From Pyrobaculum oguniense TE7 (lineage in GTDB: Archaea; Thermoproteota; Thermoprotei; Thermoproteales; Thermoproteaceae), in the NCBI GenBank assembly GCA_000247545.1, contig CP003316.1, positions 1,645,233 to 1,709,232 on the forward strand: a DNA stretch of 64,000 nucleotides, given 5' to 3'. The position numbers and the translations under genes were made by a program. Shown here piece by piece: positions 15,208 to 50,878 of this stretch. The notes below the pieces were generated by a model, which made no database searches, was not told where the DNA came from, and saw only the letters and a list, made by a program, of their open reading frames with translations. Positions within the stretch are counted from its first letter, which is position 1; each line of letters begins with the position of its first letter.

Positions 15208-16297
15208 ATGGAGGAGTTCGTACAGCTTTTGAAAAAACTTTCGGAGGCCAGGGGGCCGCGGGCTTCGAAGACGAGGTTAGGGAGGTTGTGGTAAGGGAAA
15301 TGGAGCCCTATGTGGACGAGGTAGTTGTGGACAGGTGGGGCAACATCATTGGGGTGAAGAGGGGGCGTCTGACTACAGGGCCATGGTGGCGGCGCACATC
15401 GACGAGATCGGACTCGTCGTGGACCACATAGAGAAGGAGGGCTACCTGAGATTCAGACCAATTGGAGGGTGGAATGAGGTTATTCTCGTCAGCCAGCGGG
15501 TCTGGGTGAGGACTTCAGATGGCCGGTGGATAAGAGGGGTTGTGGGGTCTCTGCCGCCGCATGTAACGCCAAGCGGGAAGGAGCGCGAGGCGCCTGAGAT
15601 TAAGGACTTGTTTATAGACATCGGCGTGTCTAGCAGAGAGGAGGCGGAGAAGCTAGGCGTCACCGTCGGATCTGTGGCTGTACTGGATAGGGAATTCGCC
15701 GTGTTTAACGGAAAGGTGGTCACCGGGAAGGCGTTTGACGACAGGTTGGGAGTAGCCGTGATGCTCTACGCCTTGAGGATGCTGGAAAAACTACCTGTCA
15801 CCCTCTACGCCGTGGCGACAGTCCAGGAGGAGGTTAGACTCCGCGGGGCAAGCGTCGCTGCAGAGCGAATTAATCCCCACTACGCTATTGCCCTGGGCAC
15901 CACCATTGCCGCCGACGTACCGGGCGTCTGGGAGAGGCTTCACGTAACGAAGTTGGGCAAGGGCCCGGCCATAAAGGTGCTGGACGGCGGTGGGGGTGGC
16001 CTATTCATAGCCCACCCAGGCCTGAGGGATCACACCGTGAAGTTGGCGAGGGAGCTCGGGATCCCCTACCAGATGGAGGTGCTTTACGGCGGTACCACCG
16101 ACGCCATGGCCATAGCCTTTAGGAGGGAGGGCGTCCCCGCCGCTGTTATCTCGGTGCCTACGCGGTATATCCACTACCCGGTGGAGGTCCTCGACGTGGA
16201 GGACGCCGTAAACGCGGCTAAGTTGCTTAAGGCAACTCGGAAAGAACTACGCCGGAGATTGTGGAGAAGTTTCTTGACAAGAGAGTTAAGTAGCTAG
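15208..16297 (+). CDS. M42-family aminopeptidase, frame broken twice near the N-terminus
   Basis: M42 (FrvX/TET-like) peptidases are cytoplasmic di-metal aminopeptidases. The ATG at 15208 has a TATA box (TTTTTAAAAAC) 25 nt upstream, but the reading frame changes at a G5 run (15251-15255) and again at a G5 run (15361-15365); adding one G at each restores a continuous protein, about 363 residues. The rest, open from 15335, has the metal and catalytic residues: AAHIDEIGLV, FDDRLG, VQEEVRLRGA, YGGTTDAM and a final IHYP. Either both G runs are sequencing errors or the gene is a recent pseudogene; translation from GTG 15335 would give a protein lacking about 45 residues. Confidence 0.8.
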
Positions 16298-16902
16298 CTT
16301 CGCTTTACTTCCCCTGTCACCAGGTACCAGGCGTGGTTGGCTATATACACTGCGTGGTCCGACGCCCTTTCTAGAAGTCTCAGCACGACGGTTTCCGCTA
16401 CTTTGCACCGGTCTGCTCCGCTCAGCACGTCGAGCAGCGCCTCTTCGTATGCCTTGTCTACTATTTCGTCATCCATTTTCTCCACTTCTCTTATGCCAGA
16501 TGCGTCTCGTCTGAGGAACATGTCCACCGCCCTAGCGACCATCTGCTTCACCACCTCTCCGACCTCGGCCACTCTCTTGGACCAACATCCGGAGCCTATT
16601 TTCCTCACCACAGTGGCGACATCGAGGGCGTAACGCGCCACTCTGTAGATGTCGTACGAGATAAAAAGCGCGCTTTTCAAAAAACGCAAGTCGCTGGCAA
16701 CAGGCCCGTACCGCGCAACCGCCTCCATTACCAAGTCAGATATCTCGTGGTGGATGTCGTGTATCGTAGATGCCATTTTCCTAATCTTCTCGACATCGGG
16801 CTCTTCTTTAAGAGCCTCGTCCAACGCCTCAATTGCGATTTTGGCGCCGTTGTTGATTTTTCTAGATATCTCCTCCTCGGCTATGTCAAGCAATCTCCTC
16901 AT
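16294..16902 (-). CDS. PhoU-like / DUF47 helical protein
   Basis: A 202-residue all-helical protein with the PhoU/DUF47 pattern: repeated E-x3-D/H metal-binding helices such as STIHDIHHEISDLVMEAVARYG and a final ERASDHAVYIANHAWYLVTGEV, which corresponds to the conserved E/DxxxD...ERxxDHa motif of PhoU domains. Such proteins modulate phosphate transport in the cytoplasm. Its stop overlaps the end of the convergent M42 gene by 4 nt. A weak copy of the TTCATACGAA palindrome (TTCATATGTC, 16936-16945) lies 34-43 nt upstream of the ATG, the same spacing as at the Pst promoters. Confidence 0.75.
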   Translation of the reverse strand: MRRLLDIAEEEISRKINNGAKIAIEALDEALKEEPDVEKIRKMASTIHDIHHEISDLVMEAVARYGPVASDLRFLKSALFISYDIYRVARYALDVATVVRKIGSGCWSKRVAEVGEVVKQMVARAVDMFLRRDASGIREVEKMDDEIVDKAYEEALLDVLSGADRCKVAETVVLRLLERASDHAVYIANHAWYLVTGEVKRS

Positions 16903-17014
16903 GTGTGATTAATGTCATAAATTATTAAACTATTTTTCATATGTCCCGCACCTCGGCATCGCTGTCTCTGGAAATATACTAGGCTTACAACTGGGTAGCT
17001 CTCTGTTAGGTGCA

Positions 17015-19397: not shown

Positions 19398-20266
19398 ATC
19401 CTAAACAGCCCAGTTGGCCTTAACAGTAGTATAAGCAGAAGCATGACGAATGCGAGGAATAGCGCCATCTGCGAAGGCTCTGCGAAACCGGCTAGGGAGA
19501 AGAGGTAGAATCCCACAGATTCAAATACGCCGAACAGCAACCCAGCGACGTAGGTGCCGGCCACTGAGCCGAGGCCGCCCATGACGGCGATGACGAAGCC
19601 CATCAACGTGTAGGGGCCGCCCATGTAGGGGTTGATCCCGACGGGAATGAACAAGGTGAGGAACACGCCTCCGAGAGTTGTAATTCCTATGCCCAGGGCG
19701 GAGCTAAAGGCGAAGACCCTATCTACGTTCACCCCAACTACCATAGCCCCGACTGGGTCCTGGACAACTGCTCTCACCGCGCGGCCGAAGTAGGTCCACC
19801 TCAAGACCAGCTCCAGGGCTATGGTAATCATCAGGGCTAGAATTGCGCCTATTAGTTTAGTCAGCTCTATCTGGAGGCCTGCAACCTCAACGGAGCCTAT
19901 AGTCCACCTGTAGCCCACGAAGTCGGGTCCCCAGATCAGCCTCGCTACCTCTGCGAGAAGGGCGCCGAGCGCGAACAAGGCGACTAAGATATTCAACTCA
20001 GCCTTCCCCAGCCTCTTGATAACCCCAGCATATACCAAGTAGCCTGCGGCGATCCCGATTGCAAAAGCTAAGAGGGATGAGGCGAATGGAGGGATAGCTA
20101 AGGCCACAAACGCCGTGTAGGCGATGTATGCTCCTATCATGATAAAGGCTCCATGTGCCACATTGGCCACTCTGAGCACTCCAAAAATGAGGCTGAGGCC
20201 GAGGGTGGTGAGTCCGTAGATAGAGCCAATTATAATACCGGTTAAAAAATATGGGGTTATGTCCAT
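19394..20266 (-). CDS. livH: Branched-chain amino-acid ABC transporter permease LivH
   Basis: A 290-residue membrane protein of the LivH type: N-terminal GLTTLGLSLIFGVLRVANVAHG, a cytoplasmic loop with RAVVQDPVGAMVVGVNVDRV, and GGLGSVAGTYVAGLLFGV near the end. Partner of LivM. It starts at the last base of the binding-protein stop codon, so the genes are tightly coupled. Confidence 0.92.
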   Translation of the reverse strand: MDITPYFLTGIIIGSIYGLTTLGLSLIFGVLRVANVAHGAFIMIGAYIAYTAFVALAIPPFASSLLAFAIGIAAGYLVYAGVIKRLGKAELNILVALFALGALLAEVARLIWGPDFVGYRWTIGSVEVAGLQIELTKLIGAILALMITIALELVLRWTYFGRAVRAVVQDPVGAMVVGVNVDRVFAFSSALGIGITTLGGVFLTLFIPVGINPYMGGPYTLMGFVIAVMGGLGSVAGTYVAGLLFGVFESVGFYLFSLAGFAEPSQMALFLAFVMLLLILLLRPTGLFRI

Positions 20267-21645
20267 TATTTACAGAGCTTCCCAGCCGCCTTTTCGTCCC
20301 AAGTCAGGCTTGGGTAGAGGAGCTTGCCATCAGCAACAACGGCGGGCCAAACAACATATCTGTTTCCTCCCTGCCACTGGATCACCACCATGGAGTGGGC
20401 CACGTTCAGGTTCGTGGTGGGGTCTAATTTGAACTCGCCGAAGAACGTCATAAACCTCGCGTTCTGCAAAGCGTCGAGCACCTTATCGGACTTGGCCGAC
20501 ATAGCCTTCTGTACGCCGTATAGGATTGTCAATACACCCTTGGCTCCCCACGCCGCGTGGTAGCCGGGATCCACCTCATGGCCGCCCATCTGCTTAGCAA
20601 TCTTCCTGAAATACTCGATGAACTCCTCCTTAGTGGGGCCAAACCACTCGACGTTTCTCTGCTTTGCAAGGTCTGGCGTGTACTTGACACCGGGCTCCCA
20701 GTGGGAGGGTCCCACTACGCACTCTGCCTTGGCGCCGAGGGCCTTGTAGAAGTCCGGCACTAGAGGGGCAACCGAAAGGGCGATGAGCTTGGCGTCTACC
20801 TTCTGCTCTGCCAACTGCTGGACCGCCAGTTGGCCGTCGGCGAAGTGGGAAGCCACGATGATCACATCGGGTGCGGCCTGCTTGACCTTTAGAATTTGCG
20901 GCGTCAGATCCTTAGGCGAGGAGGGGTATACCTCGTAGACGACTACTTGCAAGCCGAGCTTCTCGGCGTAGGCCTTGGCGCCCTCTGCCACCTGTCTGTT
21001 AAACTCGCTGTCTCTGTACAGGATGGCCACTTTTTTAACTGTGGGGTCGGTCTTCACTACCATGTCCAGCACCGGGATCATGTACTGGCTGGCGGGCGCG
21101 GCGACGCCGATGACGTATTTAAAGCCCTGCTGGAATATGCGGTCTGACGCCGCGCCGACCACGGCCATCAACACACCGTATTTCTCGGCGATCGGCGACA
21201 CTCCAAGTGCCAAGTCTGAGCCGTAGGGGCTGAGGAGGAAGTGCACCTTGTCCTGGGTGATGAGCGACTCCGTAATGCTCTGAGCCAGCTCAAGCTTAGA
21301 CTCGCTGTCTCTGTAGATAAGCTTAACCTTAACCTTCTTCCCGCCGCAGTCAAGGCCGCCGTTGTCGTTAAACCAGTTCACCACCGCAAGCGCCCCCCAC
21401 AGTGAGTACTGCCCCTCAGCCGCGTATCTACCAGAAATAGGCATCGCGGTGCCTATGACGACCTCATCGGGGCACTCACCAGTCTGCATCGTTGACGTCT
21501 GCTGGGAGGAGGTGGGCTGCGCAGTAGTTATCGGAGTTGTTGTGGGGGCCTGAGCCGGGGGTTGGGAGGCAAGCCACGCGCCTACTCCAATTAGCAGAAC
21601 CGCCACCACTGCGATAACTGCAAGTAGTGTTTTGGAGACAGCCAT
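20266..21645 (-). CDS. ABC transporter substrate-binding protein, Liv/amide-urea type
   Basis: A 459-residue type I binding protein (Peripla_BP_6). An N-terminal hydrophobic anchor (residues 5-27) is followed by a Thr/Ser/Gln/Pro-rich linker to about residue 55, as is usual for archaeal binding proteins tethered outside the membrane. The core opens with VVIGTAMPISGRYAAEGQYSLWGA. It captures branched-chain amino acids or a related amide for LivHMGF. First gene of the operon. The substrate within the Liv class (amino acids, urea or amides) is not settled. Confidence 0.88.
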   Translation of the reverse strand: MAVSKTLLAVIAVVAVLLIGVGAWLASQPPAQAPTTTPITTAQPTSSQQTSTMQTGECPDEVVIGTAMPISGRYAAEGQYSLWGALAVVNWFNDNGGLDCGGKKVKVKLIYRDSESKLELAQSITESLITQDKVHFLLSPYGSDLALGVSPIAEKYGVLMAVVGAASDRIFQQGFKYVIGVAAPASQYMIPVLDMVVKTDPTVKKVAILYRDSEFNRQVAEGAKAYAEKLGLQVVVYEVYPSSPKDLTPQILKVKQAAPDVIIVASHFADGQLAVQQLAEQKVDAKLIALSVAPLVPDFYKALGAKAECVVGPSHWEPGVKYTPDLAKQRNVEWFGPTKEEFIEYFRKIAKQMGGHEVDPGYHAAWGAKGVLTILYGVQKAMSAKSDKVLDALQNARFMTFFGEFKLDPTTNLNVAHSMVVIQWQGGNRYVVWPAVVADGKLLYPSLTWDEKAAGKLCK

Positions 21646-21728: not shown

Positions 21729-22535
21729 TTAGTAAAGCCTGCCTGTGACGTACTTTTCTGTCAGCTCGTGTTTCGGGTTGGTGAAGACCTCTTTGGTGGG
21801 GCCCGTCTCCACTATCTGGCCCTTGTAGAGGAAGGCCACGTAGTCGCTTATCCTCGCCGCTTGAGGCGGGTAATGAGTGACCAAGACAATGGTCATCTCC
21901 TTCTTGAGCTCGAGGAAGAGGGCCTCTATCTTGGCTGTATTTTCAGGGTCGAGGTTTGCAGTGGGCTCATCGGCAAGCAGAACCTCGGGATTAAAAGCCA
22001 ATGCGCGGGCAATGCACAACCTCTGCTGTTGTCCACCTGACAGCTTACCTGCCGGGGCGTTGAGCCTATCCTTAACCTCATCCCACAGCTGAGCCTTTTC
22101 GAGCGCCTGCTTTACTCTCTGGAAAAGCTCTCTCCTACCGTTGACAAGGCGGTTTAGCTTAAGGCCCAGCGCCACGTTTTCAAATATTGACAGGTTAGGT
22201 ATGGGGTTTGGGATTTGGAAAATCATCTGTACGCGCTTCCTCAGCTCTACAACATCCATTTCGAAGATAGAGCGCCCGTCTAGCAGGACATCGCCTTTTA
22301 CCCTCGCATCTGGGTATATCTCGATAAGGCGGTTTAAAACTCTCAATATGGTAGACTTGCCGCTCCCCGACGGCCCCATAAGTGCCGTTATGGTATTTGG
22401 GGATATCTCTAGGTTCACCCCCCGCAAAACCTCTAGAGAGCCAAAAGCAACCTCTAGGTTCTTTATAACAACCCCACTCTTAGAACTCGTCATACTGCCA
22501 ACCATCACTTCTGTCTCTCCGACCACCTTTCCCAT
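21729..22535 (-). CDS. pstB: Phosphate ABC transporter ATPase PstB
   Basis: A 268-residue ABC ATPase: Walker [10 protein letters not shown], PstB-type insert ([30 protein letters not shown] region), signature [15 protein letters not shown] and Walker [15 protein letters not shown]. It drives phosphate import with PstA/PstC. A 115-nt gap separates it from pstA; it has its own TATA (about 22553-22561) with a palindromic site directly upstream. The first ~18 residues precede the conserved core and a later start is possible. Confidence 0.92.
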
Positions 22536-22567: not shown

Positions 22568-22577
22568 TTCGTATGAA
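22568..22577. promoter_or_regulatory. Putative Pho operator upstream of pstB
   Basis: TTCGTATGAA, a 10-bp near-palindrome, 33-42 nt before the pstB start and adjoining the TATA box. Identical sites at the same spacing precede pstS and the AbrB/PhoU gene. Confidence 0.7.
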
Positions 22578-22650
22578 CATAGGCTATGAAGCTGCGGATA
22601 TTAGCCGCGAGCCCTCCTCCAATCATATGTACAAAACCGGCTAATTGCGC

Positions 22651-23658
22651 TTATCTCTTCTGCGCCGCAAGCTTGGCGACTGCGAAAAGGGTAAGCACTA
22701 TTACCAATAACACGGCGGCTGCGCCGTATGCCGATTCGATCTGTACGTCGTAGGGGGTCTGGGCGGCGTACCAGATCCACAGCGGAATCGCTGCCGTGGC
22801 CTGGGTGAACGGCGCGTAGTAAATATTTCCTAATGCTGTAAATAGGAGCGGCGCGGTTTCGCCGGCTATCTTCGCCGTGCCTAACAGAGCGGCTGTGAGC
22901 ACAGCTCTCGAAACCGCCTTCCTCAACACGATGAACATCGCTTTGAACTCACGGCCGCTGATAGAATAAGCCGCTTCGCGAATGCTATCGGGTATAGACG
23001 CATACGCGCTCGCGGTAACTAAGGCCACGTAGGGTATCATGATTATAGACAAGGCCAAAGCGCCCGCGTACGCGTTATATCCCCCAAGAGGCCCGATGAA
23101 CTGTCCCACCCCATCTCCCAGCGCGGAAGTTAGCCACTCAGACAGCGGGCTAAGCAACGTGCGGTTTAAGTCCTCGATCACAAACACGAACACAGCGTAG
23201 ACAAAAAGACCTATGGTAATAGTCGGGAACTCCACCAAGACGTTTACACTGGCACGCGCCACATTGGCAAAGGCCTCCTTCCTCATTTCGCCGATGTACA
23301 CGCCTATGGGAAACCCAACGATGAAGCCCACAACAGCGCCTAGCGCAGTCATGTACAGAGTTCCTACCAGAAGCGGACCTATGCCCCACCTGTCGGCAAA
23401 GGGGTCTGGGGGCAGTCTTGTAAGAAACTCCCAGAGACTGTACAGAGTTCCTACTAGAAGCCGGCCTACGCCCCACCTGTCGGCGAGGGGGTCTGGGGGC
23501 AGCCATGCGAGAAACTCCCACGGACTGCCCAGTTGTTTTACAATTGCCGATACACCTTTGAACATCACGTCTCCTATTATCAAAAACAGCGGCAACACGG
23601 CTAAAACCCCCATTGCTAAAAACAGCGCGAGACCCAAAACACTTATTAGCCGCCTCAT
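22651..23658 (-). CDS. pstA: Phosphate ABC transporter permease PstA, with internal duplication
   Basis: A 335-residue membrane protein of the PstA type (GFIVGFPIGVYIGEMRK, SAYASIPDSIREAAYSISGREFKAMF as the EAA loop, and GTAKIAGETAPLLFTALGN). It forms the phosphate pore with PstC. Residues about 45-102 contain two tandem copies of a 29-residue unit (WEFL-x-LPPDP-x-ADRWG-x-G-x-LLVGTLY), which makes the first extracytoplasmic loop longer than in relatives. The ATG overlaps the pstC stop by 4 nt. Confidence 0.92.
   Translation of the reverse strand: MRRLISVLGLALFLAMGVLAVLPLFLIIGDVMFKGVSAIVKQLGSPWEFLAWLPPDPLADRWGVGRLLVGTLYSLWEFLTRLPPDPFADRWGIGPLLVGTLYMTALGAVVGFIVGFPIGVYIGEMRKEAFANVARASVNVLVEFPTITIGLFVYAVFVFVIEDLNRTLLSPLSEWLTSALGDGVGQFIGPLGGYNAYAGALALSIIMIPYVALVTASAYASIPDSIREAAYSISGREFKAMFIVLRKAVSRAVLTAALLGTAKIAGETAPLLFTALGNIYYAPFTQATAAIPLWIWYAAQTPYDVQIESAYGAAAVLLVIVLTLFAVAKLAAQKR
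23352..23525. repeat. Two tandem 87-bp repeats inside pstA
   Basis: Units 23352-23438 and 23439-23525 are near-identical and keep frame (87 = 3 x 29). The differences are mostly single bases, so the duplication is not brand new. Confidence 0.9.
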
Positions 23659-24590
23659 GTCGTTGCTCTTTGAAGGATATAGATGGCGACGGCGTTTATG
23701 GCTAGTCCAACAACTGCAAGCAAGAGCGCGCCTGCGAAGAGCGCCGGCACCATGAACTGGTAGGAGTGTGCGTTGGGGAACTGCAACGCTATGAGCGAGG
23801 AGATTGTTATACCGCTTTCAAATGGGTTGAGGGTAAACCTAGCGAAGTTCCCGCCCACAACCATCGCCACAGCTACCGTTTCGCCCATCGCCCTCCCCAG
23901 GGCAAGAAATAACCCCCCGAAAATATAGTTTTTCACATAGCGTAGCTTGACCAGCACAGCCTCGAATTTCGTAGCACCAATAGCATATATCGCCTCCTCT
24001 ATGTGTCTAGGAACAAGAGCATATCCCTCTCTTATCACCGCCGCGGCGTAGGGCGTAATCATTATGGCTAACAGTATAGCTGCTGTGAAAAGCGTCAACG
24101 GAGCCGTCATTACCTCACCAAAACCCAGCCATGTGGACACTGTGTTGACGACAGATTGCAACACGGGTCCGAGGACAAAAAGCCCCCACAAGCCGTAGAT
24201 AACAGTCGGCATTGCCGCCGTCAAATCATTAAGCGCCCCGAAGACCCCACGCAACCTTTGCGGTAGCATCTCGTTGATGGTAACGGCCACCCCCACCGCC
24301 AGGGGCATTGCCACGGTTATGGCGATCGCAGAGGTAATCAGCGTCCCCACGAGGGCGTTGAGAACACCGTAACTCTCTCGGGGGGGATCCCAGTCGCTGT
24401 TGACAAACACCGCAAGACCATCTCTCTCAAGTAGGGGAAGCGCCTCCCATGCGAATGTGGCCACTAACGCCGCAATTATCGCGACGTTTATCGCGGCGAT
24501 GAGGCGTAGCCCCCACCTTGTTTTGATAAAAAGAAGTGTGAAGGCCGACAAGAGGTAGAAGGTTATGAACAGCACTAAAAAGATAGCCAT
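23655..24590 (-). CDS. pstC: Phosphate ABC transporter permease PstC
   Basis: A 311-residue permease with about six or seven membrane segments. PstC features: GTLITSAIAITVAMPLAVGV, DLTAAMPTVIYGLWGLFV, and the EAA loop EGYALVPRHIEEAIYAIGAT; GRAMGETVAVAMVVGG follows. It lies between pstS and pstA, 20 nt after the pstS stop. Confidence 0.93.
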   Translation of the reverse strand: MAIFLVLFITFYLLSAFTLLFIKTRWGLRLIAAINVAIIAALVATFAWEALPLLERDGLAVFVNSDWDPPRESYGVLNALVGTLITSAIAITVAMPLAVGVAVTINEMLPQRLRGVFGALNDLTAAMPTVIYGLWGLFVLGPVLQSVVNTVSTWLGFGEVMTAPLTLFTAAILLAIMITPYAAAVIREGYALVPRHIEEAIYAIGATKFEAVLVKLRYVKNYIFGGLFLALGRAMGETVAVAMVVGGNFARFTLNPFESGITISSLIALQFPNAHSYQFMVPALFAGALLLAVVGLAINAVAIYILQRATT

Positions 24591-24610
24591 GGGTTAAAAA
24601 AATAGGTTAT

Positions 24611-25930
24611 TTAAGGCTTAACTTGCTCTAGTGCTTGGAGCCCAATCCGCGCGACTGATTCTGGTAGCGGTATATAGCCCTCTACTAGTTGCTTCTGCCC
24701 ATCTGCTAACACCCACTTGAAGAACTCTTTCAACAGCATAGTCTTGGCTGCTGCGTCGCCGTAGCCCTCAGCGGCGTAGTCCTTCCACAAGAAGACGTAG
24801 ACAAACGCCAGTATTGGGTAGCCGGCGGGCGGGTTTGTGAACTCTATCGACACGGGGTTCCAGTCAGCATCTGGCGAGGGGGGAGCTCCGTATTTCGCCA
24901 CGTAGCGCCTCAAACCCGCATCGGCCCCAGCTGATACGGCCTCAGCGGTTGGGAAGTAGTATTTTCCGTCATTGTCGTTTTTCAGATAGGCAACGCCGCC
25001 GATCTTGTCATATTTGTCTCTGTTCTTCCACCAGTAGGCGTACTCAACGTAGCCGATGGAGTAGGGCGTCTGGAGTACCGTCTGGGCGACGCCCTCGTTG
25101 CCCTTTGCGCCGGTGCCCTTGGCCTTCTCGTCTGCCGGCCACTTCACCGTATAGCCCCAGCCCACGGTCTGGTTCCACGGCGGATAAGCCAGAGCCAGGT
25201 ATAGGGTAAACGCCGCGGTGGTGCCAGAGCCGTCGCTCCTGTGCACGGCCACGATGTCCTTGCACGGGAGCTTCAGACCTGGGTTCAGCTTCTGGATCCT
25301 CTCGTCGCACCACTGCTTTATCTCGCCCATGTAGATCAACGAGATCACCTCAGACGTTAAGTTGAGGTACTTCCCAGTCTTCTCATACGCCGCCTCCGGT
25401 ATGTTGTACACCAATACGATAGAGCCTATCACCACTGGGAACTGGACAAACCTGCCCTTCACCTCTTGGTATTTGTCTCTCGGCATCGGGACGTCCGACG
25501 CGCCGAAGTCCAGCTTCTTGGCCAAGAACTGGGCAGCGCCCGCGCCTGAGCCTATGGACTGGTAGTTGACCTGGGCTCCCGTCAATTCGTAAAACCTCTT
25601 AGACCACGTAATCATCTGGGGGTTGACAAATGTCGAGCCGCCACCTGTAATAGCTCCGCTTAGACGAGGCGGCTTAGTCGTGGCCTGGGTGGGGCTTGGC
25701 GTAGTTTGAGTAGGGCTTGGCGTCTGTTGAGCGCCCTGCCCCACAGCAGTGGCTGGCTGTGTATTTTGCCCTCCAGTCGTCCCAGAGCCAGGCGGCGTAG
25801 CCTCGCTGGGGCTAGTCGTTGTTTGAGTCGTGCCAGGCCCCCCCGTGCCGGGGGGAGATGCCAGAAGCGCCAATGCAATTGCTACAACTACAACCGCCGC
25901 GACGGCCGGGATTAACAGTTTCGGTTTCAT
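24611..25930 (-). CDS. pstS: Phosphate-binding protein PstS
   Basis: A 439-residue protein: N-terminal membrane anchor (residues 5-25), a long Thr/Gln/Pro/Ser-rich linker to about residue 92, then the PstS core opening GAITGGGSTFVNPQMITWSK with GSGAGAAQF, DFGASDVPM and HRSDGSGTT phosphate-contact motifs. It captures phosphate outside the cell for PstCAB. First gene of the pstSCA transcript, with a palindromic site and TATA-like ATTAAG upstream. Confidence 0.94.
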   Translation of the reverse strand: MKPKLLIPAVAAVVVVAIALALLASPPGTGGPGTTQTTTSPSEATPPGSGTTGGQNTQPATAVGQGAQQTPSPTQTTPSPTQATTKPPRLSGAITGGGSTFVNPQMITWSKRFYELTGAQVNYQSIGSGAGAAQFLAKKLDFGASDVPMPRDKYQEVKGRFVQFPVVIGSIVLVYNIPEAAYEKTGKYLNLTSEVISLIYMGEIKQWCDERIQKLNPGLKLPCKDIVAVHRSDGSGTTAAFTLYLALAYPPWNQTVGWGYTVKWPADEKAKGTGAKGNEGVAQTVLQTPYSIGYVEYAYWWKNRDKYDKIGGVAYLKNDNDGKYYFPTAEAVSAGADAGLRRYVAKYGAPPSPDADWNPVSIEFTNPPAGYPILAFVYVFLWKDYAAEGYGDAAAKTMLLKEFFKWVLADGQKQLVEGYIPLPESVARIGLQALEQVKP

Positions 25931-25963
25931 GGACGTGCTGTAAAAGCTATTTGATTAAGATTT

Positions 25964-25973
25964 TTCATACGAA
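25964..25973. promoter_or_regulatory. Putative Pho operator upstream of pstS
   Basis: TTCATACGAA, the reverse complement of the pstB site, 34-43 nt before the pstS start and just upstream of its TATA-like element. Confidence 0.7.
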
Positions 25974-26157
25974 TTGGCCGAACGTTGGCGGATGAGGACT
26001 GAGCAGAATTGAGAAGATGACATATGTCCCCCCGCTTCCTTCGCTATCTGTGTGGGGGGTGTCCAGGCTTGCCCAAGTGAACCTGGCGGTTCAGAGCTTT
26101 CTGTAGGCCTCCACTTCTGCTCATAGGCTGTTGCGGCGTCGAAGCGGCTTGGGGGGA

Positions 26158-26184
26158 GCCGCCTGCTTACCTAGGCGGGTGGCT
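26158..26184 (-). terminator. Hairpin at the end of the PaREP1 gene
   Basis: AGCCGCCT and AGGCGGGTGGCT can pair around GCTTACCT at the stop codon of the PaREP1 gene. Whether it ends transcription is not known; archaeal terminators are usually T-runs. Confidence 0.25.
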
Positions 26185-26650
26185 ACATCTCTCTTTCGAT
26201 GTAGGGCAACCTCGCCTTGACTGCCTCGGCGTCTAGCTTTGCCTTGTGGAAGCCCCAGACGTGGAGGTAGTTGGCGCTGTCCCATGCCTCCATAAACCAG
26301 TCGCCCAGCTGCCGGCTAATCGCCGCCACTGCCTTCTCTAGATCTGCAACAGTCCACCTACCCCTCTTATCCACTCTCTCAAGTACCTCAGCCAGTCCTA
26401 GGCGGATGGCTAGGGCCTTGACGCACTCCTCGGCGGCTTTGTAAAGCTTCTCCGACGCCTGTACAGGGTCGCTGTCAGATAGCCTTCTACCCTCCTCTAG
26501 ATACTTCGCACCAAGCTCCGACCTCGCCTCGGCCACCGCGTCGGGGTCCCAGCAGGCGAGCTTAGCCAATGCTTCTATTATGGCGGCTTCTGGATCTAAC
26601 CCCCTCTCTACGAGCTCATCCACTACCGCCTTTGGTACGGCAACCTCCAC
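26183..26650 (-). CDS. PaREP1-family protein
   Basis: A 155-residue helical protein that fits PaREP1 (Pyrobaculum repeat family 1): EEGRRLSDSDPVQASEKLYKAAEECVKALA in the centre, then DLEKAVAAISRQLGDWFMEAWDSANYLHVWGFHKAKLDAEAV. The family is multi-copy in Thermoproteales and related to HEPN domains; the exact role is unknown. No MNT partner is adjacent here. It lies alone between pstS and the AbrB/PhoU gene. Confidence 0.88.
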   Translation of the reverse strand: MEVAVPKAVVDELVERGLDPEAAIIEALAKLACWDPDAVAEARSELGAKYLEEGRRLSDSDPVQASEKLYKAAEECVKALAIRLGLAEVLERVDKRGRWTVADLEKAVAAISRQLGDWFMEAWDSANYLHVWGFHKAKLDAEAVKARLPYIEREM

Positions 26651-26803
26651 GACATATATCTTACAGCGATATTTGTCCCTAATAATCGGCTCTTCACCGA
26701 GGACCTAGACTGTGCTCTTCACCAGAGCTCATGGGAGCGATATTGTTATTTCATATTACTATAAGCCGCACTCGTTGCGTTTGCTGGGTTGAGTATAGAG
26801 AGA

Positions 26804-26813
26804 TTCGTATGAA
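26804..26813. promoter_or_regulatory. Putative Pho operator upstream of the AbrB/PhoU gene
   Basis: TTCGTATGAA, 33-42 nt before ATG 26846, running straight into the TATA box ATATTTAAAAA (about 26813-26823). Confidence 0.7.
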
Positions 26814-26845: not shown

Positions 26846-27739
26846 ATGAACATAACGAGAAGGAGTGTGCTCAGAGTTAGGGGCTCCTACGTGGTATACC
26901 TCCCTAAGAGATGTGTCGATTCTTATGCCCCAAGAGAGGTGGAGATGTTTTGGGAAGACGGCTTTATTGGGATAAAGCCGTCAGCACGGAGCATCGTAGA
27001 GGCGGGCCCCGCGGCGGTGTACATAATAAGCGCCTTTGCAGCCGGCGCCGATGAGGCGTATGTGAAGGCCCCGCTGGAGGAGGTGCAGAAGGCTTTGAAG
27101 GTGGTCTACGCTGAGGTGGCCGAGTCGGAGGGGGGCTACGTGGTACGGTTTGTGGACAAGTATACAGAAAAGGAGCCCGTGGTGGAGCTGATGTACCACT
27201 CCCTGGTCTACGCCCTCTCCCTCGCCTCAAGGGGCGCCGCCACGATTAAGACGTTGCAGGCTATAGACGACGAAGTAGACCGGATGAGGCTTGTGGTGAA
27301 TAGGCTGTGCGCCAAGTATCCCACCCCCACCTGCCCCTTCTACGTACAGCTGGCGAGGTACTACGAGAGGGCCCTAGACCACGTCATTGAGCTGTACGGC
27401 GAGAAGCCGGCCCCCCAGCTGTGGAGGTTGCTCCTAAACACGACAGAGGAGCTGGGCACCGCGCTGGAAGCAGGTGATCCTGAGGCGCTTGTCCAGTTCT
27501 TGTCCACGGCTAGAGGAAGGAGGTTCGAGGTCACCCAGCTGGCGAGGGGCGAGCTCCAGACGCTACACGCCGACAGGGTGATTGACTACCTCACAAACGC
27601 CGCCGAGGTGTACCTCGACTTGAGTATTTACAAAGCAGTCAAGAAGTCGCCCTCCGGTAGCCAGGTGGGGGCTACTCGCCGCGGGGCTCGAGATGAGAAG
27701 TCGGGAAAAGGCGCCTCGCTCGGCGCGGCGAAAACTTAA
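26846..27739 (+). CDS. PhoU-like phosphate regulator with AbrB-type N-terminal domain
   Basis: A 297-residue protein. The first ~45 residues match a SpoVT/AbrB DNA-binding domain (VLRVRGSYVVYLPKRCVDS...VEMFWEDGFIGIKPS); the rest is helical with PhoU-like E/D-rich helices (DDEVDRMRLVVNRL, ARYYERALDHVIELYGE, HADRVIDYLTNAAEVYLDL). Archaeal proteins of this build regulate phosphate uptake and may bind DNA directly. It sits beside the Pst operon and carries the same palindromic site in its own promoter, so it may regulate itself and pst. The last 30 residues are a basic, low-complexity tail. A paralogue is at 32576. Confidence 0.87.
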   Translation: MNITRRSVLRVRGSYVVYLPKRCVDSYAPREVEMFWEDGFIGIKPSARSIVEAGPAAVYIISAFAAGADEAYVKAPLEEVQKALKVVYAEVAESEGGYVVRFVDKYTEKEPVVELMYHSLVYALSLASRGAATIKTLQAIDDEVDRMRLVVNRLCAKYPTPTCPFYVQLARYYERALDHVIELYGEKPAPQLWRLLLNTTEELGTALEAGDPEALVQFLSTARGRRFEVTQLARGELQTLHADRVIDYLTNAAEVYLDLSIYKAVKKSPSGSQVGATRRGARDEKSGKGASLGAAKT

Positions 27740-32550: not shown

Positions 32551-32575
32551 AATAAATATGCCCGAACTATTGGCC

Positions 32576-33412
32576 ATGGAGCTTCGGAGGCTTATAAGAA
32601 TCCGCGGCTCTTATCTCGTGTATCTCCCCAAAAAAGTGGCCGCCTTGTACGAAACTCCCGATGTTGTTGTATACTGGGAGGGGCGCTTCGTCGGCGTCAC
32701 GCCGCCCGCCAGGAGGAGATATGCGAGTAATATATCAGCGCCTCAAATAGTCGTGGCCGGCTACGCCGCGGGATTAGACGAGCTGTACATTCCTAAAAAC
32801 GGCGGCGCGGCCAGGGGGCTTGAGAAGGTATACGCTGAGTGGACAGAGGAGGGAGGGCTGTTAAAAATTCGATATATTGACAAATACGCCGATAAGTCTG
32901 AAGTGGTGGAGAGGATGTTAAAAATAGCCCTCTACCTGCTAGAGGGCTTGGAGAAGGGGACGGCCACTAAAAAGACCGTGGAAGCAGCCGACGACGAGAC
33001 CGATTTGCTGAGGCTGACAGTGAATAGGCTGTGCGCCAGACAGCCCACTCCTAAATGCGCCTTTTATATCCAATTGGCCAGGTACTACGAGAGGGCTGTG
33101 GATCACATCAGAGAGCTGTACGCAGAGTCGCACACCCCCGAGCTTTGGAGGCTGTTGTACAACACCGCGCGGGAGCTCGCGAAGATTCACAACAGACGCA
33201 ACGTAGAGGACATAGTCAAGTTTCTTTCCACAATCCCCTCGAGGCGCTTTGCAGTAATGCAGACGGCCCGGAGCGAGTTGGCGATGCTACACGCCGTCAG
33301 AGTAGTGGACTATTTTGAAAACGCCGCCGAGGTCTACTTAGACTTAACGCTTTACGACAACGCGGAAATAACAGCCGAAGAGGCGGCTAGGCACAGCGCC
33401 GAAATGCGCTGA
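32576..33412 (+). CDS. PhoU-like regulator with AbrB-type N-terminal domain (second copy)
   Basis: A 278-residue paralogue of the 26846 protein: AbrB-type N-terminus (LIRIRGSYLVYLPKKVAALY, VVVYWEGRFVGVTPP) and PhoU-like helices (DDETDLLRLTVNRLCARQPT, ARYYERAVDHIRELYAE, HAVRVVDYFENAAEVYLDL). The ATG at 32576 aligns with the paralogue's start and lies about 20-30 nt after an A/T-rich AAAATAAATA; the ATG at 32558 is inside that block. Unlike the first copy it has no TTCGTATGAA site upstream, so its control should differ. It ends without the basic tail of the first copy. Confidence 0.85.
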   Translation: MELRRLIRIRGSYLVYLPKKVAALYETPDVVVYWEGRFVGVTPPARRRYASNISAPQIVVAGYAAGLDELYIPKNGGAARGLEKVYAEWTEEGGLLKIRYIDKYADKSEVVERMLKIALYLLEGLEKGTATKKTVEAADDETDLLRLTVNRLCARQPTPKCAFYIQLARYYERAVDHIRELYAESHTPELWRLLYNTARELAKIHNRRNVEDIVKFLSTIPSRRFAVMQTARSELAMLHAVRVVDYFENAAEVYLDLTLYDNAEITAEEAARHSAEMR

Positions 33413-33514
33413 GGCGGCCGTACAAACCAGAAGGCAGAGGTTTACCGTCTCTCTTGCCGTCAAATAAGACAATAGATAGGGCAGAGCTGAAGGGCGAGAT
33501 AACCGGCAGACTAG

Positions 33515-33630: not shown

Positions 33631-33654
33631 CTGTTTCCATAATGTTATAAGCTA

Positions 33655-33669
33655 TTTAAACTTTTCTCC
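33655..33669 (-). promoter_or_regulatory. tRNA-Tyr promoter (BRE + TATA)
   Basis: On the minus strand GGAGAAAAGTTTAAA, ending 25 nt before the tRNA 5' end. Both tRNA-Arg genes in this window have the same element with one base changed. Confidence 0.7.
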
Positions 33670-44976: not shown

Positions 44977-46314
44977 CTAGATTAGGCCCCTCCTCTTACT
45001 TTCATCAACGAGTATCTTATGCATCTGCTTTACCGCGTCTTCAGCCGTGAGGGAGTCGTTGAGGAACCTGGCTATAACCTCGTTTAGGGGGCGTGAAACT
45101 GAGGGCCAGATGGGCGATGTCCGTGCTGGTATGCCGGCCTCCATTACCTTGACGTAGGCCTCGGCGAGTCTGTTGCGCTGTCTAACCTCGGTGCTTTGGT
45201 ATACGGTGAACCTAGTGGGCGGCATGGAGGTTTCTAAGTGAGCCTTTAACTGCCCCTCGTAGGAGGTGGCGAGCCGGACAAACTGCTTGGCTAGCTCCTT
45301 CCTTTCCGAAAATTTAGGGACAACGTAGCACCAGATACCAGTGTTGGAAACTGGACCCTTTTTACCTGGAAGAGGCATAATCTCAACCTTGCCTACCACC
45401 CTGGATCTCTCAGGGTTGTCTACATACTGTATCCAGCCGTTCCACACCAGGCCGCTGAACGCCTCACCTGAGTAGACAGACTCATGTATTTCCCGGAGGT
45501 TTGTCCACGTAGCGATCTGTGGGTGGCCGTACCGCTTGAAGATTTTGAGCGCCCTAAGAGCCTCCACCGCCTCTTGGGAGTCCAGCACAGGTGTCACGCC
45601 ATCCTTTGGGTCGAAGTACGCCCCGCCGTAGGCCATCAGCGTCACGGCGTATGCGTCCCCCGCCGCGCCATCGCCCTGGCCTAATGTTAGGTTGCCCGTG
45701 AAGGCATAGACGCCACTTGGCAATTTCTCGGAGGCCTCCTCGGTCAACCTAAGGATGTCATCCATTGACTTTGGCGGAGATTCGCCCAACTTCTCGAGCA
45801 GATCCCGGCGATAGAAGTAGAAGTTGAAGTTGCCCAATATGGGGACAGCCCAGAGGCCGCCGATTGCGCGTACTCTCTCAACTAACCTCGACGGATAGCC
45901 AAAGAGATCAACTCCATCTATCTCCTCGGCGTACTCATTAAAGTCTAAAAGCCACGGCTCGTCAAGATACAAGACGTCGTATTCAGAAGAGCGGTTCCGC
46001 ATTGCAAGGACGGCTATGGAATATAAATCGTTGTACCCCTTAGGGACGTAGTCAACCTCAGCACCGGTTTTAGAGCGGAAGTAGGGAATGAGGCCCTTTC
46101 TGTGAACCTCTTCGTGGTAGTCGGAGCGGGCTAGCACTTTGATAGAAGAAGCTTGCGCCGGTGAGGAGACTTGCTGAATAGTTTCTTTAGTAATAAGTTC
46201 TTCCTTTTTTCTACCATTGTTAAAGAGAGTAAAGGCCACGGCGCCCACGGCTGTGGCGGTAACTATGCCGGCAGTTATGGCCATTAGCTTTCTGCGTCCG
46301 ATTTTCGAACTCAT
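44977..46314 (-). CDS. Sugar-type ABC transporter substrate-binding protein (copy 1)
   Basis: A 445-residue group-1 extracellular binding protein (MalE/UgpB-like). Start at ATG 46314 gives a Tat-like/anchor N-terminus GRRKLMAITAGIVTATAVGA and a short linker; the earlier open frame to 46443 lacks sense. Core motifs: DVLYLDEPWLLDFNEYAEEI, LWAVPILGNFNFYFYRRDLL, AYGGAYFDPKDGVTPVLDSQ. It is clearly paralogous to the protein at 49294-50637 throughout. It comes last in the operon order, 325 nt after the second permease gene, and may have its own promoter. Confidence 0.85.
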   Translation of the reverse strand: MSSKIGRRKLMAITAGIVTATAVGAVAFTLFNNGRKKEELITKETIQQVSSPAQASSIKVLARSDYHEEVHRKGLIPYFRSKTGAEVDYVPKGYNDLYSIAVLAMRNRSSEYDVLYLDEPWLLDFNEYAEEIDGVDLFGYPSRLVERVRAIGGLWAVPILGNFNFYFYRRDLLEKLGESPPKSMDDILRLTEEASEKLPSGVYAFTGNLTLGQGDGAAGDAYAVTLMAYGGAYFDPKDGVTPVLDSQEAVEALRALKIFKRYGHPQIATWTNLREIHESVYSGEAFSGLVWNGWIQYVDNPERSRVVGKVEIMPLPGKKGPVSNTGIWCYVVPKFSERKELAKQFVRLATSYEGQLKAHLETSMPPTRFTVYQSTEVRQRNRLAEAYVKVMEAGIPARTSPIWPSVSRPLNEVIARFLNDSLTAEDAVKQMHKILVDESKRRGLI

Positions 46315-46639
46315 ACGAGGGATTTCACGCTTGTTGATATCTGTTCTACATATGCTAGTGCCCATAGGCGAACGAGACGTCAAAGATTGTTTCTTTGATA
46401 TGCATATGAATCTATACGGCAAAGCGGCCTTGAGGAACTTCAATCCAGAGCTAGGAAGCTATGAGTAATGCTTAACCATGGGGGTTTACTCACAGATATG
46501 TTACTGGTGGAGTTAGCAATGTGTGTTGTTCACCTCTTAACGATAGCTGCACATGTTGTGATTTTCCGCTACTTGGAAGACGAAGAAAAGGAAGCGGTAA
46601 TTCTAACAGCTGACGTCGTGGCCTAAAAACCGATCTTTT

Positions 46640-47431
46640 TCACTTACCAAAATGTATTTTTGTCATTGCCTGCGCCGCGATGCCTACCATCAAGATGGGC
46701 GGAATTGACGCCATAACCGAAGCGGCGGAGATTACATTCCAGTCGAAGCCGTACTCGGACGACACGAGGTGGCCGATCAACACCGATGCGGTGTACTTAG
46801 ACGGAGCGTTGATGAATATCGCGGCGTATAGGTACTCGCCCCAGACCTCGATTAGCGTGAGCGCTGCCACTGCTAGGGTTGCGTTGCGCATGGCAGGTAC
46901 CGCGATGTAGAAAAAGCGTTTCACCGGAGACGCTCCGTCCACCCTAGCCGCTGCTTCCACCTCCGGGCTGATCTCGTAGGCGAAAGCCAGCATTATCCAC
47001 AGGGCCATCGGGAGGGAATAGATCTGATACGCGAGGGCAAGGCCTAAGTGGCTGTCCAGTAGGCCCATCCCCCGAAGGGTCTCATAGACCGCCACCAACA
47101 GGGCGCTAGGCGGCAAGCTGCGGGTAAGCGCCGTCAAGGCGAGCACCGCCACGAAAAAGCGGAGGGTGAAACCAAGCTTAGCCACGGCATATGAGGTGGG
47201 AAGTGCCACGGCGACGCTGAAGGCGGCGGCTAACAGCCCAACCAGTGCCGAGTTTAAAAGGGCTTGGCCTATGCCGAGGTCCAGAACCTTGGCGTATCCC
47301 TCCACCGAGGGAGGATTAGGTGGTAGGGAGTACTGGCCGGCATTTAGAAAGGACGCCATCACCACCACTGCCAGTGGCGATACAGCGGTGAGCAACGCCA
47401 ACGTTACAGCAACTGAGCTTAGGCGCGCCAT
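46640..47431 (-). CDS. Sugar-type ABC transporter permease (MalG-like)
   Basis: A 263-residue permease with six membrane segments. The EAA loop reads YEISPEVEAAARVDGASPVKRFFYIAVPAM-type (about residues 155-180), typical of MalG/UgpE. C-terminal residues FGK end after the last helix. It overlaps the MalF-like gene by 13 nt. Confidence 0.9.
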   Translation of the reverse strand: MARLSSVAVTLALLTAVSPLAVVVMASFLNAGQYSLPPNPPSVEGYAKVLDLGIGQALLNSALVGLLAAAFSVAVALPTSYAVAKLGFTLRFFVAVLALTALTRSLPPSALLVAVYETLRGMGLLDSHLGLALAYQIYSLPMALWIMLAFAYEISPEVEAAARVDGASPVKRFFYIAVPAMRNATLAVAALTLIEVWGEYLYAAIFINAPSKYTASVLIGHLVSSEYGFDWNVISAASVMASIPPILMVGIAAQAMTKIHFGK

Positions 47432-48264
47432 GTCTTCGCCACTAGATACACGTAGGGGACAATCGCCGCCATGGAGATGCCAAGCAACACCACAGAGACG
47501 GCGCTGGCCAGCCCCAAGTCCAGAGTATAGATCCCGCGCGTGTAGAGGTACAGCTCCAGCGTCGTCGTGGAATCACCGGGACCGCCTCTAGTGAGTAGCC
47601 ACACCTTGACGAAGATCCTAAACGCATCTATCAGCCTGAGGAACAAAGCGGCTAAAATGGCGGAGCTGGCTAAGGGTAGCACCACCCTCAAGGCCATGGA
47701 GAACCCCCTAGCTCCATCGATACGGGCGGCTGAGATAACCTCCGGCGGGACGGCAAGCAACCCGGCGAAGACTACTAAAGTAACGAAGGGGGTAAGCTGC
47801 AAAACGTCTAAGCCGACAATCGCCCAGAGGGCGGTGTCGGGATTGCCTAAAAAGTCTGGGATTCTAAACCCGAAAAACTCGGCAACTGGAGCTAGCGCCC
47901 CCCTTCTATAATCCAACATATATCTCCAGAAAACCACGTAGGTCACGGACGGGACCAGGTAGGGTATTGTTAGAAGCCCCACGTATACACCCCGGCGCCT
48001 CGTCCACATGAGACCATAGGCAAGGGCCACGCCGATAGCTGTCTCGAGGAGAGCAGCCGTTGCGACGAACGTAACCGTCACAGCCAAGGCTTTGGAAAAG
48101 GTGGGGTCGGAAAAAAGCTGGAAGTAGTTATCCCATCCGACAAATTTGGGCGGCCCAACAGCCACTTTGTAGTAGTGTAGGGATAGGGCAACTGTGTAGA
48201 TGATTCCGACGATGAAAAGCCCAAGGGCTATAAGGCCGGGGGACGCAAGTACCCACCTAATCAT
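47419..48264 (-). CDS. Sugar-type ABC transporter permease (MalF-like)
   Basis: From ATG 48264 the protein has 281 residues with six membrane segments; the EAA loop is VPPEVISAARIDGARGFSMALRVVLP-type. The longer open frame upstream (to 48351) would overlap the ATPase gene by 95 nt and adds a basic, non-membrane stretch, so 48264, which overlaps the ATPase stop by 8 nt, is preferred. Partner of the MalG-like permease. Confidence 0.9.
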   Translation of the reverse strand: MIRWVLASPGLIALGLFIVGIIYTVALSLHYYKVAVGPPKFVGWDNYFQLFSDPTFSKALAVTVTFVATAALLETAIGVALAYGLMWTRRRGVYVGLLTIPYLVPSVTYVVFWRYMLDYRRGALAPVAEFFGFRIPDFLGNPDTALWAIVGLDVLQLTPFVTLVVFAGLLAVPPEVISAARIDGARGFSMALRVVLPLASSAILAALFLRLIDAFRIFVKVWLLTRGGPGDSTTTLELYLYTRGIYTLDLGLASAVSVVLLGISMAAIVPYVYLVAKTWRA

Positions 48265-49201
48265 GAAGCTCCACGCTGCTGATCGGCGCCAGCTTGACTT
48301 TAGATCCCGGTTGGACTTTTTTGTCAAGGTAAATCTTAACAAGCCCCCCATCCAACTGGACGAAGGCTACCCAGCCGCGCCCCCGGTACTCAACGTCGAG
48401 AACCACGCCGCTGAAATCGCCTTCGCCTATCACGACGCCGTCAGGTGGGAAGGCAAGATAGCGGCCGTTAAGAGATATTACGTTGTGGCCAAGAAACCTA
48501 GCCACTTTGGAACAACACGGCTTCTTGTATAGCTCATCCGGCGGGGCAACCTGGGCGAATTTACCTCCCATCAAGACAGCGACTCTATCGGCTATGGAGA
48601 AGCCCTCCTCCCTATCGTGCGTCACCATGATGGTGGTGATAGCTAGCTTTTTGACAAGTCTTTTAAGCTCGGAGCGGACTCCCTCCCTTAGGGCGGGGTC
48701 TATGTTGCTAAACGGCTCGTCCATGAGTAAGAGCCTCGGCCTCTTGACAATCGCCCGAGCCACTGCTACCCTCTGTCTCTGGCCACCCGACAGCTGGTGG
48801 GGCTTCTTGTGCAACACCTCCGTTATGTTAAGCATTTCGGCCACTTCTCTGACTGCCTTTTCTATATCACGCTTGCTCCACTTAGCCATCTTTAAAGGAA
48901 ACGCGATATTGTCGTACGCAGTCATGTGAGGATAGAGAGCATAGGACTGGAACACATACCCAACCCCCCTCCTCTCGGGCGGCACATAGACAACCTGTGA
49001 GTCGTCAACCAGCTCGCCTTCTATAAATAGCCTCCCCTTGGTTGGCCTAATTAGACCTGCGACAATGTTCAGAAAAGTGGACTTCCCCTCGCCGCTTGGC
49101 CCCAATATGACGAAAAACTCGGAGCGCTCAACTTCGACATTGAGATCTTCAAGAACCCTTTGTTGACCAAACCACTTGGAAATCCTCTCTGCTTTAAGCA
49201 T
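48257..49201 (-). CDS. Sugar-type ABC transporter ATPase (MalK/UgpC-like)
   Basis: A 314-residue ATPase: Walker A GPSGEGKST, signature LSGGQRQRVAVARAI, Walker B LLLMDEPFSNIDP, and a short C-terminal TOBE-like domain (from about residue 235; VVIGEGDFSGVVLDVEYRGR). It drives import by the two permeases. The C-terminal domain is shorter than in E. coli MalK, in keeping with many archaeal CUT1 ATPases. It comes second in the operon after the copy-2 binding protein. Confidence 0.92.
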   Translation of the reverse strand: MLKAERISKWFGQQRVLEDLNVEVERSEFFVILGPSGEGKSTFLNIVAGLIRPTKGRLFIEGELVDDSQVVYVPPERRGVGYVFQSYALYPHMTAYDNIAFPLKMAKWSKRDIEKAVREVAEMLNITEVLHKKPHQLSGGQRQRVAVARAIVKRPRLLLMDEPFSNIDPALREGVRSELKRLVKKLAITTIMVTHDREEGFSIADRVAVLMGGKFAQVAPPDELYKKPCCSKVARFLGHNVISLNGRYLAFPPDGVVIGEGDFSGVVLDVEYRGRGWVAFVQLDGGLVKIYLDKKVQPGSKVKLAPISSVELHD

Positions 49202-49293
49202 GCTTCAAAATTAGTGAAAGGGAAGAAGGTTTTTTGATGTGTGTATCATGCCACTCCCGTAGAGATCTCGTTCTTTGTGCACTTTCGTATGAA

Positions 49294-50637
49294 TTAGATC
49301 AAGCCTCTCTTCTTCGATGCATCTACAAGTATTCTCTGCATTTGTTTTACGGTTTCTTCGGCAGTTAGTTGATCGTTGAGGAATTTAGAAACCGCCGTAT
49401 TGAGCGCGCTTTCGGCGTCCATGTAGGCAGGTGAGGTCCGCGCAGGCGTAGCCACCTCTAGCAACCTGTAGTAGGCCTCAGCCAGTCGATTCTTCTCCTT
49501 TACCTTTGGATCTTGGAACACAGTATATCTCGAAGGCGGCATCTGGGCGTTGAGGTGTGCATACAGCTGGCCCTCAAAGGACGTGGCGAGCCGGACGTAC
49601 TCCTTTGCCAGTTCCCTGTTCTGTGAGTACTTAGGCACCACGTAGTACCAAACCCCCGTTTGAGCCACCGGTCCCTTTCTGCCAGGCAGAGGCATAACCT
49701 CCATCTTACCAACAATTCTTGACCTCTCCGGCACGTCAGCGTATTGCACCCAACCGTTCCACACAATCCCACACATGATCTCGCCTTGATATATAGCTTC
49801 TGAATACTCCGTGAGGTTAGTCCATGACATGTTTCTCGGATGGCCGAACTTCTTGAATAGATAGAGGGTCTTCAACGCCTCTATTCCTTCTTGGCTGTCC
49901 ACCACGGGCGTGACTCCGTCCTTCGGATCAAAGAGGGCGCCTCCGTAGGCAAGAAGTATTGTCGCATAAGCATCAGATACAGAGCTGGGTAAGTAAGCAC
50001 CGGCGGAGTACACGCCCCTGGGTAGCTTTTTTGACGACTCTTCCAGAAGCCTAGCTAGATCATCCATGGACTTGGGCGGCGACTCATTTAAGGTTTCCAA
50101 GAGATCACGTCTATAGAATAAGAAATTTGCATTGCCTACAATAGGCACAGCATAAAGACCATTGCCGACCCTCTGCTGATCCACAAGCTTCGCCGGGTAT
50201 CCCGTCAGATCAACCCCCTCTATAACCTCCACATGCGGCTTGAAATCGAGTAGCCACGGTTGATCTACGTACATGACATCGTATTCATTGGATTGTCTTT
50301 GCACTGCCAATACGCCGACCTGATAAAGGTCGTCGTAGCCCTTGGGGATGTACTTTACCTCAACGGGACCGACCTTAGATTGAAAGTATGGTACTAGGCC
50401 GTTTCTATGGATCTCCTCGTGATAGCCAGATCTTGCCAGTATTACAAGGCTCCTCCGCGTCTGTCCAGGTTGCGAAGGTGTTTGTTGAGCAGTGGCCGTC
50501 TGTGGCGGTGACTGCGTAGGTCGTGGGGTGCTAGAACCGCCAGGTCCTAGGGCAAGTAGAGCCCCACCGGTTGTTGCGATTACTGTTGCACCCGCCGCAA
50601 GATATAGGATTTGTCTCCGGGTTATCTTGTTTGACAT
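49294..50637 (-). CDS. Sugar-type ABC transporter substrate-binding protein (copy 2)
   Basis: A 447-residue group-1 binding protein, paralogue of copy 1. The N-terminus ITRRQILYLAAGATVIATTG has a twin-arginine and hydrophobic helix (Tat-type export is possible), then a Thr/Gln/Pro linker to about residue 60 and the core (LARSGYHEEIHRNGLVPYFQ, DPKDGVTPVVDSQEGIEALK). It begins the operon. A copy of the putative Pho operator with 8 of 10 bases kept (TTCATACGTA, 50671-50680) lies 34-43 nt before the ATG, so the substrate could be an organophosphate such as glycerol-3-phosphate rather than a plain sugar; this is inference. Confidence 0.87.
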   Translation of the reverse strand: MSNKITRRQILYLAAGATVIATTGGALLALGPGGSSTPRPTQSPPQTATAQQTPSQPGQTRRSLVILARSGYHEEIHRNGLVPYFQSKVGPVEVKYIPKGYDDLYQVGVLAVQRQSNEYDVMYVDQPWLLDFKPHVEVIEGVDLTGYPAKLVDQQRVGNGLYAVPIVGNANFLFYRRDLLETLNESPPKSMDDLARLLEESSKKLPRGVYSAGAYLPSSVSDAYATILLAYGGALFDPKDGVTPVVDSQEGIEALKTLYLFKKFGHPRNMSWTNLTEYSEAIYQGEIMCGIVWNGWVQYADVPERSRIVGKMEVMPLPGRKGPVAQTGVWYYVVPKYSQNRELAKEYVRLATSFEGQLYAHLNAQMPPSRYTVFQDPKVKEKNRLAEAYYRLLEVATPARTSPAYMDAESALNTAVSKFLNDQLTAEETVKQMQRILVDASKKRGLI

Positions 50638-50670: not shown

Positions 50671-50680
50671 TTCATACGTA
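50671..50680. promoter_or_regulatory. Possible Pho-type operator upstream of binding-protein copy 2
   Basis: TTCATACGTA, 8 of 10 bases as in the pst sites, and 34-43 nt before the start as at pstS. Confidence 0.35.
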
Positions 50681-50878
50681 GTAATTAATGAATGTGCCTG
50701 TACACTGTAGTAAATTCGGCGGTGGAGGCTGAGCTGGCATATGTCACTACAGCTTATTGTCTTAGTGATTCTTATGCTGACCCACGATCGGTTGGGGCTT
50801 AAAAGGGCATAGGCTTAGCGCGGCGGACACGAGGCGGGGGCATATCAGTTTAGCCTCTACCTGGGTTTCACTGCAGAT

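Follow-up and report, generated by a model that had tools for sequence, protein, structure and literature searches.

Phosphate control in archaea without two-component systems has been little studied outside the haloarchaea, which provide the closest known kind of regulation, the PhoU-type control represented by the pho-boxes of Halobacterium salinarum and by PhoU2 (HVO_2374) of Haloferax volcanii, encoded beside pst1. In this work we analyzed a stretch of 64,000 nucleotides of Pyrobaculum oguniense TE7 (contig CP003316.1, positions 1,645,233 to 1,709,232 of the forward strand), hereafter the window, whose own coordinates are used throughout. It carries a 10-bp palindrome upstream of the phosphate transport (pst) genes and of abrU1, a gene for a protein that joins an AbrB/MazE-like N-terminus to a PhoU domain. 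The comparison of sequences leads us to propose that the palindrome probably serves as operator for AbrU, which would be a one-component regulator responding to phosphate and acting on pst, on phoU, on its own gene and on a second ABC transporter with binding proteins of the SBP_bac_1 type. The Pyrobaculum system is a crenarchaeal variant of the archaeal PhoU-type Pho regulon, and no equivalent crenarchaeal operator or regulator was found in the open-access literature. If the proposal is true, AbrU does in one protein the job of a bacterial two-component system.

The locus shares with the haloarchaeal systems a cis element in the pst promoters (PMC6560208), a likeness by role. It differs from them in belonging to another phylum, in having an operator, TTCATATGAA, whose copies form phased pairs at the fixed positions -42 and -97/-107, and in that divergent promoters share operators. 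Moreover, H. volcanii has response regulators, whereas the response-regulator domain PF00072 was detected in none of the 11 Pyrobaculum genomes searched (12 of 14 control genomes, H. volcanii among them, were positive); therefore, a PhoB/PhoR circuit is unlikely in these organisms. With the bacterial PhoR-PhoB Pho regulon the system has in common a PhoU component and a target set of pst, phoU and possibly an organophosphate-type transporter. The cis element shared by pst and phoU, with operators at pstS, pstB and phoU, is best regarded as a functional analogy to the bacterial regulon and not as homology. Unlike the bacterial system, AbrU has its PhoU domain fused to a predicted DNA-binding domain, no response regulator was detected in the Pyrobaculum genomes, and each operator site is a single 10-bp palindrome, whereas bacterial Pho boxes are direct repeats.

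An earlier note on this DNA had described three exact copies of the palindrome, before pstB, pstS and the AbrB-PhoU gene, at a fixed distance from the start codons and beside the TATA box. The three copies were found again, since TTCGTATGAA, read on either strand, occurs at 22568, 25964 and 26804. Counted from the start codon, as are all offsets given here, these predicted sites lie at -42 of pstB (22568..22577, minus strand, TTCATACGAA), at -43 of pstS (25964..25973, minus strand, TTCGTATGAA) and at -42 of abrU1 (26804..26813, plus strand, TTCGTATGAA), which has its own copy as had been claimed, and on their downstream side they run straight into TATA-like boxes. The scan of the whole P. oguniense genome (2,436,033 + 16,887 bp, 2.45 Mb) yielded four exact copies, three of them at pst/abrU, and two matches for the reversed-pattern control; the motif is thus not equally common at random positions. 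The fourth copy, absent from the earlier note, lies at 49284..49293 (minus strand, TTCATACGAA), at -92 of an ABC ATPase gene, and no proximal partner was seen for it. As a bare string the motif shows no over-representation genome-wide, which makes a broad regulon unlikely; what sets it apart is its placement, not its abundance. Two other candidates in the window were rejected: the one-mismatch match at 33981 lies within a coding region, and that at 62513 overlaps the probable start codon of a helix-turn-helix (HTH) gene. In the relatives, exact sites outside pst/abrU are mostly inside open reading frames (ORFs). The motif first described is a real site, but TTCGTATGAA is the form of one species: the family-wide core is TTCATATGAA, in which CATATG is nearly invariant, and having G as the fourth base is peculiar to P. 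oguniense.

The single site of the earlier description, the proximal operator (O1), is real but is half of the design, given that most of the promoters have a second copy upstream, the distal operator (O2). For pstS this copy is at 26019..26028 (minus strand, GACATATGTC), at -98 and 55 bp from O1; for pstB at 22622..22631 (minus strand, TACATATGAT), and for abrU1 at 26750..26759 (plus strand, TTCATATTAC), in both cases at -96 and 54 bp from O1. For phoU (16294..16902, minus strand, PF01895) O1 is located at 16936..16945 (minus strand, GACATATGAA, -43), and no O2 was recognised upstream of the gene start at 16902. Two classes of O1-O2 spacing are seen, one of 54-56 bp and one of 64-66 bp, which differ by one helical turn and correspond to 5.2 or 6.1-6.2 helical turns; this suggests that two dimers sit on much the same side of the helix, touching each other or looping the DNA. 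In compact divergent pstS/abrU regions of the relatives (loci L043, L044, L048 and L057) the O1 of one gene is the O2 of the other.

The same site is present at the same position in the pst promoters of the relatives. Conservation was evaluated in 10 non-redundant pstS promoters, leaving out P. oguniense, by scoring against TTCRTAYGAA; the start codons had been picked by hand before the test, mostly as the first ATG preceding a hydrophobic leader. The mean score was 7.4/10 at -42/-43 and 7.2/10 at -97/-98, and 2000 dinucleotide shuffles gave an average of 3.9 at -42 and a maximum of 5.8 at any offset. O1 was found at -42/-43 in 14/14 pstS promoters scored from AbrU-linked lineages (the relative G008 included). 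The fact that the site abuts the TATA box, and that the string is not over-represented in the genome, would also fit a core-promoter element resembling the B recognition element (BRE), or a chance similarity, with no regulatory role. This idea is largely refuted and we consider it highly improbable: the position-specific conservation beats all 2000 shuffles, a BRE does not account for the second site, which is in helical phase with the first, and ordinary promoters score low. In a control set of 384 ATG-start ORFs, taken from the window, 18 loci of relatives and one pilin locus, the mean best score at the O1 position was 4.5/10, and the twin-site threshold was reached by 21 promoters, 17 of which belong to pst, abrU or SBP genes. 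The other four were two pilin copies of Pyrobaculum sp. WP30, cstA, and an ORF that overlaps the cstA promoter. Elsewhere in the P. oguniense genome, none of the twin-site pairs that were checked together with the surrounding sequence stood in register with a start codon.

The WP30 pilin copies (G006, locus L079, 8022-8131 and 15552-15661) are near-identical archaeal pilin-like genes; both have TTCATATGAA at -43 twice, within a 66-bp tandem repeat that includes the TATA box.

The candidate regulator, AbrU1, is encoded at 26846..27739 on the plus strand. Among 19 AbrU homologs, the PhoU domain PF01895 was detected in 17 (best 1.4e-7), the AbrB/MazE-type domain PF04014 in 9 (best 1.4e-7) and TIGR02135 in 9, and AbrU1 of the window taken alone falls below the Pfam cut-offs for both domains (PF01895, 0.033). 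The family alignments show invariant R-x-S and LPK residues and an N-terminal S-Y-x-x-x-LPK hairpin region; this segment is like that of the AbrB/MazE/VapB swapped-hairpin proteins, from which AbrU differs in its C-terminal PhoU domain, as they have a toxin-binding tail or act as stand-alone regulators. The AlphaFold model of AbrU (predicted local distance difference test, pLDDT, 85) has as its top Foldseek matches the PhoU structures 3l39, 4q25, 2i0m and 1t72 (probability 0.96-1.0, best E 0.014), with no match below E 0.001; AbrB structures do not appear among these top matches. The family thus has the PhoU domain at the C-terminus, the AbrB/MazE-type domain at the N-terminus and linkage to pst. 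The gene was located in 17/19 genomes of the family (E <= 1e-12), and at this threshold the other genomes of the class gave no match. It adjoins pstSCAB in most Pyrobaculum and in two Thermoproteus-type genomes, usually divergent from pstS, and in WP30 it adjoins the SBP_bac_1 cluster instead of pst.

This distribution bears on whether AbrU reads the operator, as the earlier note had proposed for the AbrB-PhoU protein. The proposal is backed by the conserved divergent linkage to pstS, by the WP30 abrU standing beside another operator-bearing transporter, and by the one near-complete Pyrobaculum genome (G007) where AbrU was not found, in which pstS has no operators. The relatives G004 and G005 each have another pstS copy, unlinked, and no operators were found there, nor at distant AbrB-PhoU paralogs not associated with pst; the unlinked pstS of WP30 keeps TTCATATGAA at -97. 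Taken together, the evidence that would link AbrU to the operators is correlative, which leaves room for a different reader: a transcription factor encoded elsewhere, AbrU being only a target or acting on the transporter. This reading would fit G008, which has the site and where AbrU was not detected, and the presence nearby of a distinct PhoU (16294-16902). We consider it quite unlikely, since the transporter cluster next to abrU, be it pst or another, is one that bears operators, since the operators are missing from the near-complete genome in which AbrU was not found, and since AbrU has an AbrB/MazE-like segment of its own with the invariant hairpin region.

Several observations weigh against AbrU as the regulator reading these sites. 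The G007 assembly consists of 130 contigs with a completeness of 93%, and an AbrU gene could be missed there; G008, with the operator and no AbrU found, is 74% complete; one operator within a pair is frequently degenerate; and neither the WP30 abrU nor a second AbrB-PhoU gene of the window, abrU2, has operators, hence autoregulation is not universal. abrU2 (32558..33412, plus strand) encodes a protein 97% identical to that of the pst-linked gene of the relative G001, and no operator was found upstream of it. It stands in a 3.65-kb block (32550-36199) that begins about 26 nt before abrU2 and is 98.4% identical to the G001 region downstream of the pst-linked abrU; the pst genes of the window and of G001 have a DNA identity of only about 71-77%. 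We interpret the block as a recent exchange, with a breakpoint that cut off the operator region of abrU2. In G004, the pst-linked abrU (L048, 8989-9790) carries an in-frame TGA in its PhoU part and its upstream operators are intact, possibly a natural loss of the regulator or possibly a sequencing error. Such a stop-interrupted gene with its operators kept, together with the genomes and pst copies that lack the regulator or the operator, offers natural controls for a testable pair, the AbrU protein and the operator TTCATATGAA at sharply defined positions.

Regarding the mechanism, AbrU, probably as one dimer per site, would occupy O1 (from about -42 to -33) and O2. Transcripts in Pyrobaculum are usually leaderless, so that start codons lie near +1 and O1 would overlap the expected BRE directly upstream of the TATA box. 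With O2 at 54-56 or 64-66 bp further upstream and nearly on the same helix face, the two bound dimers would probably touch or loop the DNA. Phosphate-replete AbrU would most likely block the loading of TBP and TFB at the pst, phoU, abrU and SBP_bac_1 promoters, and when phosphate is scarce, a state that the PhoU domain would sense, AbrU would be released. Repression is somewhat favoured over activation because most PhoU proteins act as negative effectors and because the abrU1 promoter has a strong TATA box (TATTTAAAAA) next to its site, an arrangement more typical of negative autoregulation. Neither argument is decisive, and the same operator and regulator could work as an activating pair, with AbrU bound under phosphate starvation and recruiting TFB and TBP to a weak BRE/TATA. 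O1 stops where the BRE/TATA starts, and archaeal activators also use the position just upstream of these elements. In line with activation, and in this respect against our proposal, the pho-boxes of H. salinarum are described as essential for the up-regulation of pst (PMC6560208). On balance, we regard AbrU as an activator as rather unlikely. The fullest version of the AbrU proposal can be put forward tentatively: a complete one-component Pho switch, in a lineage without response regulators, in which a single looped AbrU complex on phased operators would control two divergent promoters at once and would cover the uptake of inorganic phosphate as well as another ABC transporter, perhaps for organophosphate. 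In any event, phased twin operators beside BRE/TATA make a simple system for the study of an archaeal regulator facing the TBP/TFB machinery.

The candidate regulon extends beyond pst to this SBP_bac_1 ABC-transporter cluster (44977..50637, minus strand), which encodes two binding proteins, two permeases and an ATPase; each of its binding-protein genes is preceded by a pair of sites. Upstream of the gene starting at 50637, O1 is at 50671..50680 (minus strand, TACGTATGAA, -43) and O2 at 50736..50745 (minus strand, GACATATGCC, -108), 65 bp apart; upstream of the second gene (ATG at 46314), O1 is at 46347..46356 (minus strand, AGCATATGTA, -42) and O2 at 46401..46410 (minus strand, TTCATATGCA, -96), 54 bp apart. 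Of the weaker copies listed in the earlier note, those at 16936 and 50671 hold, but the gene behind the latter, listed there as a second copy of the binding protein, is of the SBP_bac_1 type (sugar/glycerol-3-phosphate-like) and not a PstS. The third, before cstA (57771), is not supported: the one-mismatch site at -41 has no O2, and the sole ortholog found, in G001, has no site. The four phosphate promoters served to design the promoter pattern RTAYGAA - TATA - ATG, and a scan of the genome with it gave 10 matches, of which five correspond to phoU, pstB, pstS, abrU1 and the gene at 50637, and several of the remaining five are visibly coding.

The orthologs of the cluster in WP30 also carry sites, at -42/-108 of SBP1 and at -42 of SBP2, and a 209-aa gene in the same cluster (L045, 3631-4260) has them at about -42/-97 once its ATG is placed. 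By eye the product of this gene resembles a degenerate glycerophosphodiester phosphodiesterase, which is no more than a lead, as no support came from Pfam, from a sequence search of the PDB or from an AlphaFold model built on the single sequence (pLDDT 38). The transporter is similar to the glucose systems of archaea and to the Ugp/Mal systems of bacteria, under all curated cut-offs, and the closest known structures of its binding protein are sugar-binding proteins. An organophosphate is a plausible substrate by analogy, because the phosphate stimulon of haloarchaea includes, along with pst and a glycerophosphodiesterase, a glycerol-3-phosphate ABC transporter (PMC6560208). A further possible target is a 118-aa ORF elsewhere in the P. 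oguniense genome (L193 1037; G000:C1:1031951), preceded by TTCATATCAA at -42 and a TATA box, with no second site. In two Pyrobaculum genomes (L060 and L065, position 1501) an exact TTCATACGAA is conserved between two divergent genes, one of the SBP_bac_1 type, where it stands at -51, and one for a secreted protein without assigned function, where it stands at -42.

The pst genes of the window are all on the minus strand. pstS (24611..25930) is above the cut-off of TIGR00975, the pstC-type (23655..24590) and pstA-type (22651..23658) permeases were assigned by PF00528 and by their position in the pst operon, and pstB (21729..22535) has PstB models as its best NCBIfam matches, just under the cut-off. 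A PaREP1 gene lies between abrU1 and pstS. Between pstB and phoU there is a liv-type (branched-chain amino-acid) ABC operon (17015-21645), and a homologous liv-type operon flanks pstB in G001 too.

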